51,431 nt of DNA from positions 1 to 51,431 of the forward strand of contig JAGXLU010000012.1 in NCBI GenBank assembly GCA_018334565.1. Reading direction: 5' to 3'. This stretch comes from Halanaerobiales bacterium. GTDB lineage: Bacteria > Bacillota > Halanaerobiia > Halanaerobiales > M55B127. Position numbers and translations under genes: made by a program. Below the pieces are notes generated by a model, which saw only the letters and a program-made list of their open reading frames with translations, was not told the origin of the DNA and made no database searches. This document shows positions 27,896 through 48,161 of the stretch, piece by piece (positions within the stretch are counted from its first letter, which is position 1; the number at the start of each line of letters is the position of its first letter).

Positions 27896-28948
27896 ATGAA
27901 ACCGAGTGACTATAAAGATAAAAATGAGGTTAAAACAACATATAAGATAAAAGAACTGCTTACAAAAATAGATGGCCAATATGAAGGACAGCTTTCTTTA
28001 GAACAAACCATAAGGGGTGTTAGTAGTATAGCAAATAACAGTCCAGACAGAATTACCTTTGCTGAAAATCAAAAATATATTAAAGAGGCTGAAAAGGAGG
28101 CAAAAGGAGTAGTATTAGTTGATGAAAATTGTCGGGAAAATGATATTAATAATTCGATAAAAGTTAAAAATATTAGGTTGAGTTATGCTCAAATTGCTAA
28201 GTTATTCAATCCTGTTCCTTATTATAATCCTGGAGTGGATCAGACGGCAGTACTCAAAAAAAATGTCTCTATAGCTAAAAATGTTTCTATTAACAGCGGT
28301 ACATATATAGGTGAAAACACAATAATTGAAAAAGATGTTGTGATAGCCCCTGGTGTAAAAATTGGCAGGGACGTTAGGATCGGTTCAAATACTGTAATAC
28401 ACCCTAATGTTGTGATCGAAAGGGATAGTATAATTGGTAAAGATGTAATTATCGAGGCATCTACAGTTATTGGTTCTGAGGGCTATGGATATGTTTTTTC
28501 AGAGGGCAAACATCATCATATTCCTCAACTTGGTAATGTAATTATCGAAGATGATGTAGAAATAGGGGCTGTGGTAACCATAGACCGTGCGACTCAATCC
28601 TCTACAGTTGTTAAAAAAGGGACAAAAATTGACAACCAAGTTCAAATTGGTCATAATGTACAAATAGGTTCTAACTGTCTGTTAGTTGCACATGTAGCAA
28701 TTGGTGGTAGTTCTATTTTGGGGGATAACGTCATCCTGGCAGGTCGGGTTGCAGTCTTTGACCATGTTAAAATTGGTGATAATGTTAAAGTTGGAGCCGC
28801 AAGTATTGTGACTTCCGATATCCCGGTGGATTCTTTTTATTTAGGTAACCCCGCTCAAGAAAGGATTAATGAATTAAAAGCAAGGGCACTTAAAAATAAG
28901 TTAGTTAATTACAGAAAGGAAATATTTAATTTAAAGAAAGAAAAATAA
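27896..28948 (+). CDS. lpxD: UDP-3-O-acylglucosamine N-acyltransferase
   Basis: LpxD adds the second primary acyl chain (amide at position 2) in lipid A synthesis. An N-terminal uridine-binding domain (about 1-110) is followed by a left-handed beta helix of hexapeptide repeats (for example [16 protein letters not shown]) and a helical C-terminus. The catalytic histidine motif is present in [13 protein letters not shown]. The protein has 350 residues. It sits between the Skp-like genes and lpxC. A start at ATG 27896 is supported by position only; the upstream AAATATTATGAGG is a moderate ribosome-binding site. Confidence 0.93.
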
Positions 28949-29006
28949 AAACTTAATTTTTTTTGTAGTGATTTTGATTTGCTTATTAATTAAGGGGATG
29001 AATGCT

Positions 29007-29867
29007 TTGTCCGAGCAGTTACGCGAACAGAAAACAATAAACAGAGAAGTTAATATTTGTGGAATTGGTCTTCATTGTGGACGGCCAGTTAAACTTGTTT
29101 TAAAACCTGCTCCGGCAGATTCAGGAATAGTTTTTAAGAGAACTGACCTTAAAGGGCACCCAGAAATCAAAGCTGTGGTTGATAATGTAACTTCAACAAG
29201 GAGATCCACAACTATTGGTCATAGGGATATTCCAATTAAAGTACAGACTATTGAACATTTGATGGCTGCTTTAAGGGTCTTTAATATTGATAATGTAATG
29301 ATAGAGATTGATAATGAGGAGCTGCCCGCTCTGGATGGTAGTGCCCAATTATATGGTGAACTTTTAAAAAAGGCAGGTGTAAAAGGTCAGAAGAAAACAA
29401 AAAGAATTTTTAAGATCAAGCAGAGTATTCATTTAAAAGAAAAAGATACTTATCTTGGTTTGTTTCCTTCTGATGTTTTCAAAATAAACTATCTTTTAAA
29501 GTATGACCACCCCATAATTGGAACAGAATATTTGGAATATATTTTTGATAAAGAGAGTTTTACCAAAGAAATTATGCCAGCGCGCACCTTTGGTTTTAAA
29601 AGTGAGGTTGAGAATTTAAAAAAAAGAGGTTTGGCCTTAGGGGGCAGCCTGCAAAATGCTGTTTTACTAGATAAAGATGGTGTTGTTAATGATTTAAGAT
29701 TTGATGATGAATTTGTCAGACATAAAGTTTTAGATATGGTGGGAGACTTATATTTAAATGGTCCCATTATTTGTGAAATTATAGGGATCAAAACTGGACA
29801 CCGTAATAATTATGAGCTAAACCGGCACATTCAGGCTTTAAAAATAAAAAATGGATGGGGTGAATAA
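29007..29867 (+). CDS. lpxC: UDP-3-O-acyl-N-acetylglucosamine deacetylase
   Basis: LpxC is the zinc enzyme that commits the cell to lipid A by removing the 2-acetyl group. Zinc ligands and catalytic residues are all visible: Glu83-His84 (TIEHLMAAL), His239 and Asp243 (VRHKVLDMVGD) and the general-acid His265 (TGHRNNYE). The protein has 286 residues. TTG 29007 lies 8 bases after AAGGGGA and fits the family N-terminus; ATG 28998 directly abuts that site and would be poorly placed. In the usual cluster LpxC is followed by FabZ, as here. Confidence 0.95.
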   Translation: MSEQLREQKTINREVNICGIGLHCGRPVKLVLKPAPADSGIVFKRTDLKGHPEIKAVVDNVTSTRRSTTIGHRDIPIKVQTIEHLMAALRVFNIDNVMIEIDNEELPALDGSAQLYGELLKKAGVKGQKKTKRIFKIKQSIHLKEKDTYLGLFPSDVFKINYLLKYDHPIIGTEYLEYIFDKESFTKEIMPARTFGFKSEVENLKKRGLALGGSLQNAVLLDKDGVVNDLRFDDEFVRHKVLDMVGDLYLNGPIICEIIGIKTGHRNNYELNRHIQALKIKNGWGE

Positions 29868-29868
29868 C

Positions 29869-30294
29869 TTGCATAATATTGAAGATATATTGGATGTCTT
29901 ACCACACAGATATCCTATGTTATTGGTAGATAAGGTTCTTGATTTGCAGCCGAAGGAAAAAATTATTGCAATAAAAAATGTCAGCTATAATGAAAATTAT
30001 TTTCAAGGCCATTATCCAGATAAGCCCATAATGCCCGGAGTTCTTATTATAGAGGCTCTAGCTCAAGCAGGTGGTTTTTTAATGCTTCATAGTGTTGAAC
30101 AAGAAAATGATTCTCTACCTTATTTTGCCGGTATTGATAAAGCTAAATTCAGAAAACCGGTGCAGCCGGGCGATCAGCTTAAGCTGATTTGTAATGTTAT
30201 TAATTTTAAGGGGAGAGCCACTAAGGTTCAGGCTGAGGCATTTGTTGGTGATGATTTGGTAGCAGAAGGTAGACTGCTTTTTGCAATGAAATAA
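29869..30294 (+). CDS. fabZ: 3-hydroxyacyl-ACP dehydratase
   Basis: FabZ dehydrates 3-hydroxyacyl-ACP, competing with LpxA and LpxD for the same substrate. The motifs LPHRYPMLLVDKV and GHYPDKPIMPGVLIIEALAQ are complete, with catalytic His48 and Glu62 (numbering from TTG 29869). That start lies 5 bases after GGGGTGA; GTG 29860 or ATG 29851 would extend it by 3 or 6 residues and overlap lpxC. The gene follows lpxC immediately. Its position between lpxC and an lpxA-like gene is the common arrangement. Confidence 0.94.
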   Translation: MHNIEDILDVLPHRYPMLLVDKVLDLQPKEKIIAIKNVSYNENYFQGHYPDKPIMPGVLIIEALAQAGGFLMLHSVEQENDSLPYFAGIDKAKFRKPVQPGDQLKLICNVINFKGRATKVQAEAFVGDDLVAEGRLLFAMK

Positions 30295-30316: not shown

Positions 30317-31117
30317 TTGAACTCAAATATGAACAATAAAGTGATTAATATATCTGATAATTATAAAAATTCATATATTCACCCAAAGGCAGAGATTGGT
30401 AAAAATGTTGAAATAGGACCTTATTCAATTATTGGGCCATATGTCAAAATAGGGGATAATACTAAAATTGGAACCCATGTTACAATTACCGGGGATACTT
30501 TTTTGGGAAAAGCAAATAAAATATATCATGGTGTGTCTATTGGTTCATGTCCACAAGGGGCTAAAAAAGAAGGCCAGATATTTATCGGTGATAATAATAT
30601 ATTCAGAGAATATGTAAATATAAAAAGTGATTCAGACCGCGGCAATGCTGAGACTAAAATAGGCAACAACAATATGATTATGGCTTACTGTCACATTTCT
30701 GCAAATTGCAATATTTCCAGTGATGTTATTATGTCTAATGCTACATCTGTAGGGGAAGATGTCATAATAGAAGATCAAGCAGTGGTGGCAGGTATGACTA
30801 ATGTAAAAGAATATGTTAGAATTGGTAGAATATCTATGGTAGGGGCACATTCTAATGTGTTAAAAGATGTACCACCTTATATAATTGTGGATGGACATCC
30901 TGCTCAGGTTTCTGGCATAAATGTAATTGGCTTAAGAAGAAACAGCATAAAACCTGCAGTAAGAAGAGAAATTAAAAAGGCATACAAGATACTATATAGA
31001 TCTGATTTAAACATTGACGAAGCAATTATGGAGATGGATAATACCTTGAATGCAGATCAAAATATAGAATACTTTTTAAGATTTTTAAGAAATGTAAAAA
31101 GGGGTATTTGTCGTTAG
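30317..31117 (+). CDS. LpxA-like acyltransferase paralog lacking catalytic histidines
   Basis: The overall fold is LpxA: hexapeptide repeats from residue 20 to about 195, the VPPYIIVDGHPAQ motif, and a helical C-terminus ending RGICR, in 266 residues. The gene is where lpxA belongs, between fabZ and lpxI. The active site is altered. Aligned by coil position with E. coli LpxA, the general base His125 is Ala129, His99 is Lys103, His144 is Asp148 and His160 is Lys164; only His122 is kept (His126). Loss of His125 abolishes E. coli LpxA activity. The frame is intact, so this is probably a conserved pseudoenzyme, a partner subunit, or an acyltransferase with different chemistry. A competent LpxA is encoded at 45305. 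The start is TTG 30317 with AAAGGAG. Confidence 0.82.
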   Translation: MNSNMNNKVINISDNYKNSYIHPKAEIGKNVEIGPYSIIGPYVKIGDNTKIGTHVTITGDTFLGKANKIYHGVSIGSCPQGAKKEGQIFIGDNNIFREYVNIKSDSDRGNAETKIGNNNMIMAYCHISANCNISSDVIMSNATSVGEDVIIEDQAVVAGMTNVKEYVRIGRISMVGAHSNVLKDVPPYIIVDGHPAQVSGINVIGLRRNSIKPAVRREIKKAYKILYRSDLNIDEAIMEMDNTLNADQNIEYFLRFLRNVKRGICR

Positions 31118-31132
31118 AAAGGTGTAACTGCT

Positions 31133-31948
31133 ATGGAAAAAGTAGGACTGATAGCTGGATATGGAAAATTACCCCTACTCTGGATTAAAGAAGCCAATAA
31201 GAAAGATGTGAGGGTACACGCCTTTTTAATTAATGAAGAATACAGCGTAAATATTGCTGGTTATGCTTATACAGTAGATTATTTAAACTTAACCCAGCTG
31301 GATAGACTAATCCAGAAGATGAAAAATTATAATTTGGATAAAATAATAATGTTGGGCAAAGTGGATAAAAAGCATATTTTCAAAAAGAATAATTTTGATC
31401 AAAGATTTAATTTGTTATTTTTAAAGCTTCAAAATTTAGAAGATCATACTATATTAGGAGAAATAGTTGAGGAATTTAAGAAAGAAAACTTAGAAGTTTT
31501 AGATCAGAGGATATTTATGGATGACTTTTTAGTTGATAGCGGTCAAATTAATAATATTGAACCTGATCAACAGTTAAAAAAAGAGATGCAGTATGCTTAT
31601 CAAAAAGCAAAGAAAATTGCCAATTTAAACATTGGACAAACTATATTGACTAAAGATAAATCTGTAGTAGCTGTTGAGGCTCTGGAAGGCACGGATTTGA
31701 CCATTAAGAGAGCAGGCAGCCTGGTTAAAAAAGGCACTATTATGGCTAAAGCTAGTAAAGACAGACATGATTTCCGCTTCGATATTCCCACAATAGGTCT
31801 AGATACAATTAGAAATTTGATTTCTATAAATGCAAAAGGTCTTGTTTTGGAGAGCAAAAAAATTTTAATCATTAATCAAAGAAAAATTATTAAATTAGCT
31901 GATCGAGCTAATTTATCTATAATATCTATATCACCGGAGGAGGTTTAA
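31133..31948 (+). CDS. lpxI: UDP-2,3-diacylglucosamine pyrophosphatase LpxI
   Basis: LpxI hydrolyses UDP-2,3-diacyl-GlcN to lipid X and UMP, replacing LpxH. The N-terminal domain starts GLIAGYGKLPLLWIKEA and the C-terminal domain has the catalytic aspartate, Asp217, in RFDIPTIGLDTI (D225 of the Caulobacter enzyme, from memory). The protein has 271 residues. LpxI is the version found in alpha-Proteobacteria and diderm Firmicutes. It is followed 1 base later by lpxB, the next enzyme in the pathway. Confidence 0.93.
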   Translation: MEKVGLIAGYGKLPLLWIKEANKKDVRVHAFLINEEYSVNIAGYAYTVDYLNLTQLDRLIQKMKNYNLDKIIMLGKVDKKHIFKKNNFDQRFNLLFLKLQNLEDHTILGEIVEEFKKENLEVLDQRIFMDDFLVDSGQINNIEPDQQLKKEMQYAYQKAKKIANLNIGQTILTKDKSVVAVEALEGTDLTIKRAGSLVKKGTIMAKASKDRHDFRFDIPTIGLDTIRNLISINAKGLVLESKKILIINQRKIIKLADRANLSIISISPEEV

Positions 31949-31949
31949 A

Positions 31950-33101
31950 ATGTCTGGTAAAGTGATGGTAGTAACTGGTGAATTATCAGGTGACCAGAGG
32001 GCAGCAGAGGTTGTTGAAGAGATAAAAAGACTTAATCCCGGGGTAGAATTCTTTGGTATGGGTTCAGATAGATTGAAAGAACAATCTGTGGAAATAATCA
32101 TTGATCCGACTGAAATTAACTCTATCGGATTTTTAGAAGCAATAAAAAATTACAAAGCACATAAACATAATTATGATATTTTAAAAGATGCTGCTCAGGA
32201 AAGAAGGCCCGATGTATTTTTTTTGATTGACTTTTCTGGTTTTAATATTAAGATGGCTAAATTGGGTACAAGATTAGGCATACCCGTTGTAGATTATTTC
32301 CCTCCTTCAGCCTGGTTGTGGGGTGAATGGAGAGCAAGAAAAATGGCCAAATATGGTGCTGTAATAGCGGCGAATCTTCCCATGGAAAGAGATATATATC
32401 GAGCCAAGGGTGCTGAAACTGTTTTTGTGGGGCATCCTTTAATAGATAAAATTGATATTAATTTGGATAATATTGAACTAAATGAAATCTTTGAAATTAA
32501 AGATAAGGAGTTCCCTATTGCTTTACTGCCAGGCAGTAGAAAAGAGGAAATCGAAAAACTACTTCCCCTCATGATTGAAACAGCTCTTAAACTAAAGAAG
32601 GACAATAGCAATTATGTTTTTTTCATACCTGCAGCAAATTTAAAGTTGGCCGATTTAATTGAAGACATTTTGATCAAATATCCGATTAAGGCAAAGGTTG
32701 TAAAAGACCATACCCACCTGATTTTAAAGTTGGTTCGTTTTGCTATCGTTGCTTCTGGTACAGCAACCTTGGAAGCAATGATTTTGAATACGCCGATGGT
32801 GATTATATATAAAACCAGTAATCTAACCTATCACATTGCTAAATTATTTTATAAGAAAGATTATTTCGGCATGCCTAATATTTTATCAAACAGTGAAATA
32901 GTTCCTGAAGTAGTTCAAAATGATCTTACTGTTGATAATATTTACAAAGAAGCCCGCAATATTCTTTCCAAACCTTATCTAATGACAGATATTAAAATTA
33001 AATTGGTTTCAGCTTCTGAGAAACTGGGCAAAAAGGGTGCCATACATAAGACGGCTAAACTTGTAATGCGGGAAGGGAATATTGATGTACTTCAGAGATA
33101 A
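31950..33101 (+). CDS. lpxB: Lipid-A-disaccharide synthase
   Basis: LpxB (glycosyltransferase family 19) condenses lipid X with UDP-2,3-diacyl-GlcN to form the beta-1,6 disaccharide. Motifs are TGELSGDQRAA near the N-terminus, SIGFLEA, the PPSAWLWGEWR segment, LLPGSRKEEIEKLLP and ASGTATLEAMILNTPMVIIY. The protein has 383 residues. It follows lpxI by one base, with CCGGAGGAGG upstream of ATG 31950, and its end overlaps lptC by 17 bases. No lpxK or kdtA is in the window. Confidence 0.95.
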   Translation: MSGKVMVVTGELSGDQRAAEVVEEIKRLNPGVEFFGMGSDRLKEQSVEIIIDPTEINSIGFLEAIKNYKAHKHNYDILKDAAQERRPDVFFLIDFSGFNIKMAKLGTRLGIPVVDYFPPSAWLWGEWRARKMAKYGAVIAANLPMERDIYRAKGAETVFVGHPLIDKIDINLDNIELNEIFEIKDKEFPIALLPGSRKEEIEKLLPLMIETALKLKKDNSNYVFFIPAANLKLADLIEDILIKYPIKAKVVKDHTHLILKLVRFAIVASGTATLEAMILNTPMVIIYKTSNLTYHIAKLFYKKDYFGMPNILSNSEIVPEVVQNDLTVDNIYKEARNILSKPYLMTDIKIKLVSASEKLGKKGAIHKTAKLVMREGNIDVLQR

Positions 33102-44550: not shown

Positions 44551-45207
44551 TTGAAAAAAATTCTGATATTATTGGTTTTGTTGATTCTTAGCTGCACTTT
44601 TATGGTATCAGCTAATTTTGAATTAACGGGTAAATTAAAAACAGGTAAAGATGAATATATTTCTAATGAATCAGGGTTTGAAGGTGAGCTTGTAGATTTT
44701 TATAATTACGAGGATCTCTGGTTTAAACTAAAAAATAACCTGGATTATCCAGACTATTATTATTTTAAGCTTAATTATTATCAAAAGCACTATGATCAAA
44801 AGTCGACATATGATAATCAGACGATTGATTTTAGTGGTAATTATACAAATAACTTCAGGAAAAAATACAGAAATAAATTTAAGCTGATTATTAAAGATAA
44901 AAATTATTTAAATGATCTGGATAAGTCTTATACTTCTTATTCTCTCAATTACCAATTTAGACATAAACTAAATACAATAAATCAATATATTCTTGATTTC
45001 AAGACACAACAATTTTACTATACTCTTGATGAGAATAATGATTATAAAGTTGATACATATAAAATTGACTGGCAAAGGGATATAAATAAAAATATAAGGA
45101 TTAATTTCAGTTATAAAATTAAGAAAAAAGAATATTTTTTTCAAAATTCAACAAGTGATAATAAATATGGACAGAGTTTTTCCATAGATTTTAAGTATGA
45201 TCTTTAA
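44551..45207 (+). CDS. Exported beta-rich protein downstream of lptD
   Basis: A 218-residue protein with a signal peptide (about 1-21, VSAN) and then many Tyr/Lys/Asp-rich strands such as YYYFKLNYYQKHY, YTSYSLNYQFRHKL and SFSIDFKYDL. The pattern suits a small outer-membrane barrel. A cysteine at position 15 (LILSC) is not a convincing lipobox. The start is TTG 44551, after GATGGGGG. It begins 13 bases after lptD, so the two are probably co-transcribed. A function as LptD partner is possible but unproven; no similarity to LptE was recognised. Confidence 0.68.
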   Translation: MKKILILLVLLILSCTFMVSANFELTGKLKTGKDEYISNESGFEGELVDFYNYEDLWFKLKNNLDYPDYYYFKLNYYQKHYDQKSTYDNQTIDFSGNYTNNFRKKYRNKFKLIIKDKNYLNDLDKSYTSYSLNYQFRHKLNTINQYILDFKTQQFYYTLDENNDYKVDTYKIDWQRDINKNIRINFSYKIKKKEYFFQNSTSDNKYGQSFSIDFKYDL

Positions 45208-45304: not shown

Positions 45305-46090
45305 TTGTTAAGTAATAACAAAATTGACCATACAGCTATTATATCTGATTCAGTTAAATTGGGTAATAATGTTGAAGTAGGCCCTTATACGATTATTACA
45401 GAAGAAGTAGAGATCGGCGATAATACAAAGATTGGTGCTTATTGTCATCTTCAGGGTTGGACAAAAATTGGAGATAATAATCTGATTGATAATCATGTTA
45501 CAATAGGATTCCCGCCTCAGAATATAGGATATGATGGCAGTAGGACCTTTGTTAATATTGGTGATAATAATAAAATAAGGGAATATGCAACAATTCATCG
45601 AGGAACAACTGAAGGACGTGGAGAAACTAAGATAGGTGATAATAATACCTTTAAGTTATATTCTCATGTGGCCCATGATTGTTATTTGGGCAACAATATC
45701 ATCCTGGATAATTATGTTAATCTGGCAGGGCATGTAGTAATATATAATGATGCTTATATTGAAAGGATGGTTGGTGTTCATCAGTTTGTAAAAATAGGAA
45801 ATTTAAGTCTTATAGAGGCTCATTCTAAGTTAATAAAAGATGTTCCACCCTATATTGTAGTTAATGGTCATCCCGCCCAGGTGGCAGGAATTAATGAAGT
45901 TGGTCTAAATGATAAAAATGTAGATACTGATGTAAGAGAAGAAATAAGAAAAGCTTACAATATACTCTATGAATCGAATTTAAATATTAGCCAGGCTATT
46001 GAAAAGTTAGAAAAGGTAAGCAAAACTTATGAGCAAATAAAGAATTTCATAAATTTTCTTAAAAATTCAAATAGAGGGATCTGTAGATAA
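45305..46090 (+). CDS. lpxA: UDP-GlcNAc (or GlcNAc3N) acyltransferase LpxA, catalytically complete
   Basis: This 261-residue protein retains all five conserved LpxA histidines: His98, His121, His124 (the general base, in SHVAHDC), His143 (LAGHV) and His159 (VGVHQF). It ends with the usual helical domain and RGICR. Compared with E. coli, the substrate loop reads PQNIGYDG, so the aspartate and lysine at positions 74 and 76 are Asn73 and Gly75. It is followed 18 bases later by GnnA- and GnnB-like genes, which make UDP-GlcNAc3N; the enzyme probably acylates the 3-amino group of that sugar, as in Leptospira and Acidithiobacillus. The start is TTG 45305, with AGGAGGA upstream. Confidence 0.9.
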   Translation: MLSNNKIDHTAIISDSVKLGNNVEVGPYTIITEEVEIGDNTKIGAYCHLQGWTKIGDNNLIDNHVTIGFPPQNIGYDGSRTFVNIGDNNKIREYATIHRGTTEGRGETKIGDNNTFKLYSHVAHDCYLGNNIILDNYVNLAGHVVIYNDAYIERMVGVHQFVKIGNLSLIEAHSKLIKDVPPYIVVNGHPAQVAGINEVGLNDKNVDTDVREEIRKAYNILYESNLNISQAIEKLEKVSKTYEQIKNFINFLKNSNRGICR

Positions 46091-46108: not shown

Positions 46109-47056
46109 ATGGACAGAGTAAAGGTTGGGGTTATTGGTGTAGGCAGTATGGGCAAAAACCATGTACGTTCATATGCTGCTTTAAAACATGTTTGTGAACT
46201 AATAGGACTCTATGATATTAATCAAAGCCGGTCTAGAAAAATGGCTAAAAGTTATGGTATTCGTTCTTTTTCTTCAACTCAGAAGATATTAAAAGAAGTA
46301 GATGCTGTAAATATAGCAACTCCTACGACAACACATTTCGATATAGCTCTTGAGGCTATTCAGGCCGGTAAACATTTATTAATTGAAAAGCCAATTACAA
46401 ATATCATAGAAGAAGCAAATCAAATTTTAAAAGAGGCTAAAAAAAAGTCATTAATAGTTCAGGTAGGTCATATAGAAAGGTTCAACCCTGCTGTTAAGGC
46501 GCTACCTGAGATGTTGAAAGAAGAAAAGATTATAGCAATAGACATCCAAAGAATGGGCCCTTATGATCCCCGAATCGATGATACAGATGTAATTCAGGAT
46601 CTTATGATTCATGATATTGATGTAGTAAGTTCTCTGATACAAGGAGATATAGCTCAGATGAATGCCCTGGCAAGAAAGGTAACTTCGAAAAAACATATGG
46701 ACTTTGCTGTCGCTAATTATCGCACAGAAGATGATATAATTGTTACTCTTACTGCCAGTCGCTCTACAAATAAAAAGGTTCGTAAGATGTCAATTACTAC
46801 TGAAAAATCTTTTATTGAGCTTGATTACATTGGAAGGAAAATAACAAGAACCAGAAGGGGTAATGGCAACTCTAATAAAAACAAACAAAGGGAATATGAA
46901 GAATCTTATGAAAACGAAGAAGAACCTTTAAAAATGCAGTTGATTGATTTTGTCAATAGTATACAAAACGGGACAAAGCCTCTGATTACTGGGTATGATG
47001 GACTTGAAGCTTTAAAACTAACCAAGTTAATCCAAGATAAAGTCTATATAGATTAA
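46109..47056 (+). CDS. gnnA: GnnA-like UDP-GlcNAc 3-dehydrogenase (Gfo/Idh/MocA family)
   Basis: A 315-residue NAD(P)-dependent dehydrogenase. The Rossmann loop GVGSMG is at residues 10-15, the family EKP motif at 93-95 and the catalytic-region motif GHIERFNPAV near 120-129. GnnA oxidises UDP-GlcNAc at C3 so that GnnB can aminate it. The family is broad (WbpB and others act on UDP-GlcNAcA), so the name rests on the neighbours: LpxA before and an aminotransferase 19 bases after. GGGAGGA lies before ATG 46109. Confidence 0.8.
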   Translation: MDRVKVGVIGVGSMGKNHVRSYAALKHVCELIGLYDINQSRSRKMAKSYGIRSFSSTQKILKEVDAVNIATPTTTHFDIALEAIQAGKHLLIEKPITNIIEEANQILKEAKKKSLIVQVGHIERFNPAVKALPEMLKEEKIIAIDIQRMGPYDPRIDDTDVIQDLMIHDIDVVSSLIQGDIAQMNALARKVTSKKHMDFAVANYRTEDDIIVTLTASRSTNKKVRKMSITTEKSFIELDYIGRKITRTRRGNGNSNKNKQREYEESYENEEEPLKMQLIDFVNSIQNGTKPLITGYDGLEALKLTKLIQDKVYID

Positions 47057-47075: not shown

Positions 47076-48161
47076 ATGATACCAATAGCCAATCCAATTA
47101 TCGAAGAAGAAGAAAAAAGTTTAGTTAATGAAGTAATGGACAGTGGAATGCTAGTTATGGGAAAATATGTGAAAAAGTTCGAGGAGAAATTTACGAAATA
47201 CTCAGAAACTGATTTTGGTATAGCAACTTCCAGTGGAACCACAGCTTTAGATGTTGCTCTTAAATCTTTAAACATTGAAGAAAATGATAAAATTATAACA
47301 ACTCCTTTTACTTTCATTGCTAGCAGTAATTCTATTCTATACTCAAAAGCGGACCCTATATTTGCTGATGTTAGAGAAGATAGTTTTAATATAGACCCAG
47401 ATTCAATAAGAAGATTGTTAAAGGAATATCCAGACACCAAGGCTCTCTTAATTGTACACCTTTTTGGGCAACCCTGTGATATGGATGAGATTATAAAAAT
47501 AGTGAATCAACATAATTTATTATTGATTGAAGATAGTGCTCAGGCCCATGGTGCAACCTATAATAATCAGAAAGTAGGTTCTTTTGGTGATGTTTCAGCT
47601 TTTAGTTTTTACCCCACAAAGAATATGACAACTGGTGAAGGTGGTATGGTCTTAACAGATCAAAAGGAGATTATGGAAAAAGCAAGATTATTAATAAATC
47701 ACGGTTCTGCACAGAAGTATCATCATGATATTTTAGGATATAATTACAGGATGACCAATATCGCTGCTGCTATTGGGTTGGTTCAGTTTAAAAAATTAGA
47801 TGAGTATAATAAAATCAGAAAGGAAAATGCCCGAAAATTAACTCAAGGATTAGTTGATCTAAATTGGCTTGAAACACCAGCCGTATTGGAAAACAGGGAA
47901 CATGTTTTTCATCAATATACAATAAAAACAGATTATAGAGATGAACTTTTACAGTACTTAACAGAAAAGGGTATAGGTTATGGAATACATTATCCCTTGC
48001 CAACATATGAACAAAATTTATATCAAAAATTAGGATACAAAGATATTACTTGTCCGGTAACTGAAAGAATTTGCGATCAAGTTGTTTCATTACCAGTACA
48101 TCCTGCCCTTTCTGAAAAAGATTTAAATTATATTATTGATAAATTAAGAAAGTTTAGATAA
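47076..48161 (+). CDS. gnnB: GnnB-like PLP aminotransferase (DegT/DnrJ/EryC1 family)
   Basis: A 361-residue sugar aminotransferase. The PLP-binding lysine is Lys182 in SFYPTKNMTTGEGG; IEDSAQAHGA holds the Asp that contacts PLP, and the family opening is IPIANPIIEEEE. GnnB transfers an amino group from glutamate to the 3-keto sugar made by GnnA, giving UDP-GlcNAc3N. With LpxA two genes upstream, this completes a three-gene cassette for the lipid A diamino sugar. An alternative is a WbpE-type enzyme for a surface polysaccharide, which I consider less likely given lpxA. GAGGGGA precedes ATG 47076. Confidence 0.8.
   Translation: MIPIANPIIEEEEKSLVNEVMDSGMLVMGKYVKKFEEKFTKYSETDFGIATSSGTTALDVALKSLNIEENDKIITTPFTFIASSNSILYSKADPIFADVREDSFNIDPDSIRRLLKEYPDTKALLIVHLFGQPCDMDEIIKIVNQHNLLLIEDSAQAHGATYNNQKVGSFGDVSAFSFYPTKNMTTGEGGMVLTDQKEIMEKARLLINHGSAQKYHHDILGYNYRMTNIAAAIGLVQFKKLDEYNKIRKENARKLTQGLVDLNWLETPAVLENREHVFHQYTIKTDYRDELLQYLTEKGIGYGIHYPLPTYEQNLYQKLGYKDITCPVTERICDQVVSLPVHPALSEKDLNYIIDKLRKFR

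Follow-up and report, generated by a model that had tools for sequence, protein, structure and literature searches.

LpxA, a homotrimer in the textbooks and a target for drugs, catalyses the first step towards the lipid anchor of the outer membrane. In the 51,431-nucleotide stretch of a Halanaerobiales contig analysed here (the window), the gene at the usual lpxA place, here called lpxA1, encodes a protein without the general base of the enzyme. A reading made from the sequence alone had pointed this out and offered three explanations: a non-catalytic partner of a second LpxA, a regulator of flux into lipid A, or an acyltransferase with different chemistry. The question is what this protein contributes.

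The open reading frame coordinates bear out the position of lpxA1 between fabZ and lpxI (Table 1); it starts with TTG, with AAGGAG 10 bases upstream. Alignment with E. coli LpxA, whose numbering is used below, confirms that His99, His125, His144 and His160 are replaced and that His122 is kept. To the losses already listed it adds those of Gly143 and Gln161, and no replacement histidines are seen at aligned positions. Automatic annotation would, as anticipated, call the protein plain LpxA, with scores of 282.9 and 259.9 bits that pass both NCBIfam equivalog cut-offs (226 and 231). The protein has the hexapeptide repeats and, at its C-terminus, the LpxA domain, Pfam Hexapep and Acetyltransf_11 being found in LpxA1 as well as in the second LpxA of the window, LpxA2. 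The AlphaFold model of LpxA1 is moderate (pLDDT 80.7, pTM 0.58) and is not used for any claim about geometry; its 30 best matches in the PDB are all LpxA, at a low TM-score (about 0.4).

Table 1. Genes of the window and active-site positions of the two LpxA-like proteins (E. coli residues named as counterparts).
Feature	Positions	Strand	Remark
lpxD	27896..28948	+	LPS pathway
lpxC	28968..29867	+	LPS pathway
fabZ	29851..30294	+	lpx operon
lpxA1, U-type LpxA subunit, 266 aa	30317..31117	+	uridine/acyl face kept, catalytic face lost
Lys103 for His99	30623..30625	+	LpxA1 alignment with E. coli LpxA
Met122 = Met118	30680..30682	+	LpxA1 alignment; uridine/acyl face, kept
His126 = His122	30692..30694	+	LpxA1 alignment; sole histidine kept
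Ala129 for His125	30701..30703	+	LpxA1 alignment; general base lost
Glu147-Asp148 for Gly143-His144	30755..30760	+	LpxA1 alignment
Gly159 = Gly155	30791..30793	+	LpxA1 alignment; uridine/acyl face, kept
Lys164-Glu165 for His160-Gln161	30806..30811	+	LpxA1 alignment
Asn202...Gly205-Leu-Arg-Arg208 = Asn198...Gly201-Arg204	30920..30940	+	LpxA1 alignment; uridine-binding motif, kept
lpxI	31133..31948	+	below NCBIfam cut-off, only family matched
lpxB	31950..33101	+	LPS pathway
lpxA2, H-type LpxA subunit, 261 aa	45305..46090	+	catalytic face kept, uridine/acyl face lost
Lys117 for Met118	45653..45655	+	LpxA2 alignment
His121 + His124 = His122 + His125	45665..45676	+	LpxA2 alignment; general base kept
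Gly142-His143 = Gly143-His144	45728..45733	+	LpxA2 alignment; kept
Arg154 for Gly155	45764..45766	+	LpxA2 alignment
His159-Gln160 = His160-Gln161	45779..45784	+	LpxA2 alignment; kept
Gly-Leu-Asn-Asp-Lys for Gly-Leu-Lys/Arg-Arg-Arg/Asn	45902..45916	+	LpxA2 alignment; Arg204 lost (R204D)
GnnA-like oxidoreductase	46109..47056	+	best NCBIfam match UDP-GlcNAc 3-dehydrogenase, below its cut-off
GnnB-like DegT-family aminotransferase	47076..48161	+	passes no NCBIfam cut-off

All four other genomes of the genus contain an LpxA1 orthologue (70-98% identity), and in each the catalytic-side residues have also been lost, so the losses are not due to chance. The reading frame is intact in 5/5 genomes, with no frame-breaking changes seen among these close relatives. 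Within the genus the dN/dS of LpxA1 is 0.02-0.12, indicating purifying selection, at or below the values for its operon neighbours lpxC (0.15-0.19) and fabZ (0.11-0.16). The earlier view that selection has kept the protein is thereby upheld, and dN/dS and conserved frames together rule out a pseudogene. Redundant copies usually lose catalytic residues after duplication, and LpxA1 might on that ground be a decaying duplicate, redundant beside LpxA2; the same dN/dS values and frames speak against this, as does the fact that LpxA2 is itself incomplete, and we give the idea hardly any credence.

The sequence-only reading missed this defect of LpxA2, which affects the opposite half of the inter-subunit site. 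All the catalytic histidines are present in LpxA2, and the changes M118K, G155R and R204D are on the uridine/acyl side, where Asn198 and Gly201 are still present. LpxA2 also passes both NCBIfam LpxA cut-offs (308.3 and 293.3 bits), and its AlphaFold model is good (pLDDT 95.1, pTM 0.90). A third full LpxA is absent: apart from these two, the search of the genome (97% complete) gave lpxD and one short match to a hexapeptide protein, and no more. Besides lpxD, lpxC, fabZ and lpxB, several lpt genes were found in the genome. Between an lptD-like gene and lpxA2, a conserved protein of 218 residues is encoded (44551-45207); it has no NCBIfam match and occurs in genomes of families f1, f3 and f4.

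In solved structures, the LpxA active site sits between two subunits (PMC7072397). That paper, on P. aeruginosa LpxA, tabulates the contacts of E. coli 2JF3, in which Arg204, Arg205, Asn198, Met170 and Met118 of one monomer line the uridine pocket, and Gln73, Asp74, Leu75, Lys76, His125, Gly143, His144, Gln161 and Phe162 of the other line the GlcNAc pocket. Gly155, Met170 and Gly173 have been placed across the interface from the Gln161 backbone and Arg258, although the Gln161 side chain is grouped with Arg204 and Asn198 in water-mediated contacts (PMC6408518). This assignment of residues to subunits rests on the two papers, which agree on Gly155, Met170 and Gly173 against the Gln161 backbone, and is independent of the present analysis; the grouping of the Gln161 side chain speaks against it. 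As the residues concerned are on opposite subunits, LpxA1 has lost one wall of the site and LpxA2 the other. The complementary defect of LpxA2 argues that LpxA1 is most likely not merely a structural partner, but would supply the uridine/acyl-binding wall.

We consider it highly probable that LpxA1 and LpxA2 are the obligate subunits of a single hetero-oligomeric LpxA, most likely a heterotrimer, whose active site they share. LpxA2 would provide the catalytic wall and the sugar contacts (His125 as base, His122, Gly143, His144, His160 and Gln161), and LpxA1 the wall that binds uridine, phosphate and acyl chain (Met118, Gly155, Asn198 and Arg204). A complete site would exist only where LpxA1 meets LpxA2 with the right handedness, and homotrimers of either protein would be inactive. 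Such a composite site would explain why an LPS pathway is present with no complete LpxA chain. Since a three-membered ring of two subunit kinds has one correct interface, a mixed trimer, whether 2:1 or 1:2, would be expected to hold one working site instead of three. This is wasteful and counts against the split, as do the His122 kept in LpxA1 and the Asn198 and Gly201 kept in LpxA2. The physical assembly, its stoichiometry, activity and substrate are what we infer from sequence.

LpxA was sampled first in 60 related genomes, then in 299 across the phylum. In most LpxA-bearing genomes it is single-copy with both walls intact; single-copy genomes of the same class keep both faces, and the uridine-side residues are kept by single-copy LpxA of other phyla too. 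Pairs of a U-type (like LpxA1) and an H-type (like LpxA2) are found in 17 genomes of four families, ten of them from Halanaerobiales (f1 and f5) and seven from a distant class (f102 and f118), where the partners co-occur without an intact copy as far as searched. Most genomes are drafts, and in three incomplete assemblies (G004, G007 and G030) one partner only was seen. Because the lpx contig of G007 stops just past lpxD, this genome was dropped as a natural control for LpxA2 alone.

Residues were counted from the face lists of the two papers, filtered for conservation in at least 90% of 115 reference LpxA; part of the residue table had been seen before the lists were taken. In the U-types of the 17 genomes, face A (the uridine side) is kept at 84/85 positions and face B (the catalytic side) at 11/119; the H-types keep 21/85 and 109/119, respectively. 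Other invariant residues are kept at 73% in U-types and 78% in H-types. Random column choices were as extreme in 0/20000 permutations, a figure that, the genomes being related, gauges column specificity and not the number of independent events. Met118 and Gly155 are present in 17/17 U-types and 0/17 H-types, and His125, Gly143, His160 and Gln161 in 0/17 U-types and 17/17 H-types. In most f5 H-types (L065, L066, L067, L070 and L071), the whole Asn198-Arg204 (NxxGLRR) segment is gone by deletion, not substitution. The loss of opposite faces is reciprocal, has occurred repeatedly and is maintained by selection. A decaying duplicate would hardly have kept face A to this extent over deep divergence while face B was lost. 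In one genome (G008, L072:6415-8331), a U-type LpxA lies inside an open frame of 639 residues, which is either a fusion or a mere stop-free stretch.

The same positions bear on the proposal that LpxA1 transfers acyl groups by different chemistry or to a different substrate, with other residues acting as base. In its favour, LpxA1 keeps the acyl and uridine faces. The face-B positions, however, vary freely among U-types (A, E, S, P or V at position 125), unlike a new catalytic centre there, and none of them was seen to have gained a conserved polar residue; we regard this proposal as very improbable.

The locus of each type differs between lineages. In Halanaerobiales it is the U-type that occupies the lpx locus, the H-type lying between an lptD-like gene and the gnnA/gnnB-like pair; f102 and f118 have the loci swapped, with the H-type at the fabZ-lpxI locus and the U-type elsewhere. 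In trees, the Halanaerobiales pair nests within Halanaerobiia LpxA (support 99/99), and the f102/f118 H-types group with the single-copy LpxA of their neighbours. In a two-tree test, one common origin is rejected for the H-types (p-AU 0.00027) but not for the U-types (p 0.15), with long branches making the detailed placement of the f5 and f102 U-types unsafe. It is safe to say that the split appears to have arisen independently at least twice.

LpxA2 might instead need no partner, forming an active homotrimer whose nucleotide binding is altered (perhaps to suit UDP-GlcNAc3N), leaving LpxA1 as a regulator or scaffold that, for example, binds acyl-ACP or UDP-GlcNAc and sets the flux into lipid A. 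The full catalytic face of LpxA2 and the adjoining GnnA/GnnB-like genes fit the first half of this idea, and the uridine motif and C-terminal domain of LpxA1 the second. Against it, Met118 and Gly155 are missing from every H-type and the NxxGLRR segment from most in f5, residues that single-copy LpxA keeps even in other phyla. A regulator also leaves unexplained why its partner lost exactly the opposite face, in two lineages with the loci swapped, and we judge the idea unlikely. Among the three explanations first offered, the partner of a second LpxA is thus favoured; the regulator and the different chemistry have gained no support of their own.

A stepwise path to the split enzyme is open, since genomes exist that combine an intact LpxA with one of the two types. 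Four Halanaerobiales genomes (G006, G014, G022 and G025) have an intact LpxA1 and an H-type LpxA2, and two genomes of two other families (G121 and G041) an intact LpxA and a U-type; these are plausible intermediates. The second LpxA of G041 (L045:1054-1866) keeps the uridine face, His122, His125 and His144 and has Gly143 replaced by Glu, His160 by Tyr and Gln161 by Glu, so that it looks like an early stage of catalytic-face loss. That of G121 (L163:5617-6546) keeps the uridine face and has lost most of the catalytic face, the intact copy being at the lpx locus. LpxA would first have been duplicated; one copy would then have shed a wall, mixed trimers covering for the loss; finally, the other copy would have shed the opposite wall, locking the pair.

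The LpxA of Leptospira interrogans is selective for UDP-GlcNAc3N. Its structure (3HSQ) has Gly at the position of Lys76 (PMC7072397 Table 1), as has LpxA2; unlike the pair described here, it combines the two faces in a single chain. Halanaerobiales H-types have other residues in place of Asp74 and Lys76, and in most Halanaerobiales the H-type gene is adjoined by a gnnA/gnnB-like pair (the functions of GnnA and GnnB are described in PMC5644692). In G024 (L049:5699-7657), a gnnB-like gene directly follows the H-type gene, and gnnA was not detected anywhere in the genome. The replaced residues, the Leptospira glycine and the neighbouring genes together suggest, as a weaker link, that the Halanaerobiales substrate is probably UDP-GlcNAc3N from the GnnA/GnnB-like enzymes, giving an amide-linked acyl chain. 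A universal link was rejected. No GnnA was found at 1e-20 in f118, G403 and G404, only distant matches in G243 and G402, and the f102/f118 H-types keep Asp74 and, in most, Lys76 as well; the substrate switch is therefore proposed for Halanaerobiales only. In the two cases read in the f102/f118 lineage (G243 and G314), a gnnB-like gene lies beside the U-type. G020 has a gnnA/gnnB-like pair (57% and 56% identity; L080:5187-7256), and its sole detected LpxA is canonical, with both faces.

Heterotrimers with sites between protomers are known elsewhere. The gamma-carbonic anhydrase of plant complex I (CA1, CA2 and CA2L) shares this arrangement, and it too has the left-handed beta-helix fold. Some of its subunits are without the catalytic histidine, so that one of three sites can be active, as has been inferred (PMC7447434). 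Its catalytic role is uncertain, whereas the reciprocal loss seen here suggests an essential enzyme. Yeast PPCDC (Hal3/Vhs3 and Cab3), unrelated in fold and reaction, likewise has a homotrimeric ancestor with interface sites followed by a heterotrimer, which is proven there and which we infer here; its essential His and Cys are on opposite sides of the interface, with one active site per heterotrimer (PMC4626798). With known LpxA (E. coli 1LXA/2JF3, P. aeruginosa 5DEM), the pair shares the fold, the C-terminal domain, the operon place and both NCBIfam models, and LpxA1 and LpxA2 together contain both the uridine motif and the catalytic histidines. The difference is that known LpxA forms homotrimers whose three sites are identical (PMC6408518), while here there is one wall per chain. 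Nothing relevant on a paired or heteromeric LpxA was found in the open-access literature.

Taken as a whole, a split, obligately heteromeric LpxA that evolved at least twice in diderm Firmicutes and is tied in Halanaerobiales to a change to 3-amino (amide-linked) lipid A is a likely account. If true, an obligate heteromer formed by complementary degeneration, twice and with swapped loci, would provide a clear natural example of the ratchet-like evolution of protein complexity, in a normally essential pathway. Standard annotation names each gene lpxA and reports two copies where there is perhaps no complete one. The pair allows one to test directly which residues act across the interface, and would open a way into the poorly known lipid A that diderm Firmicutes make.
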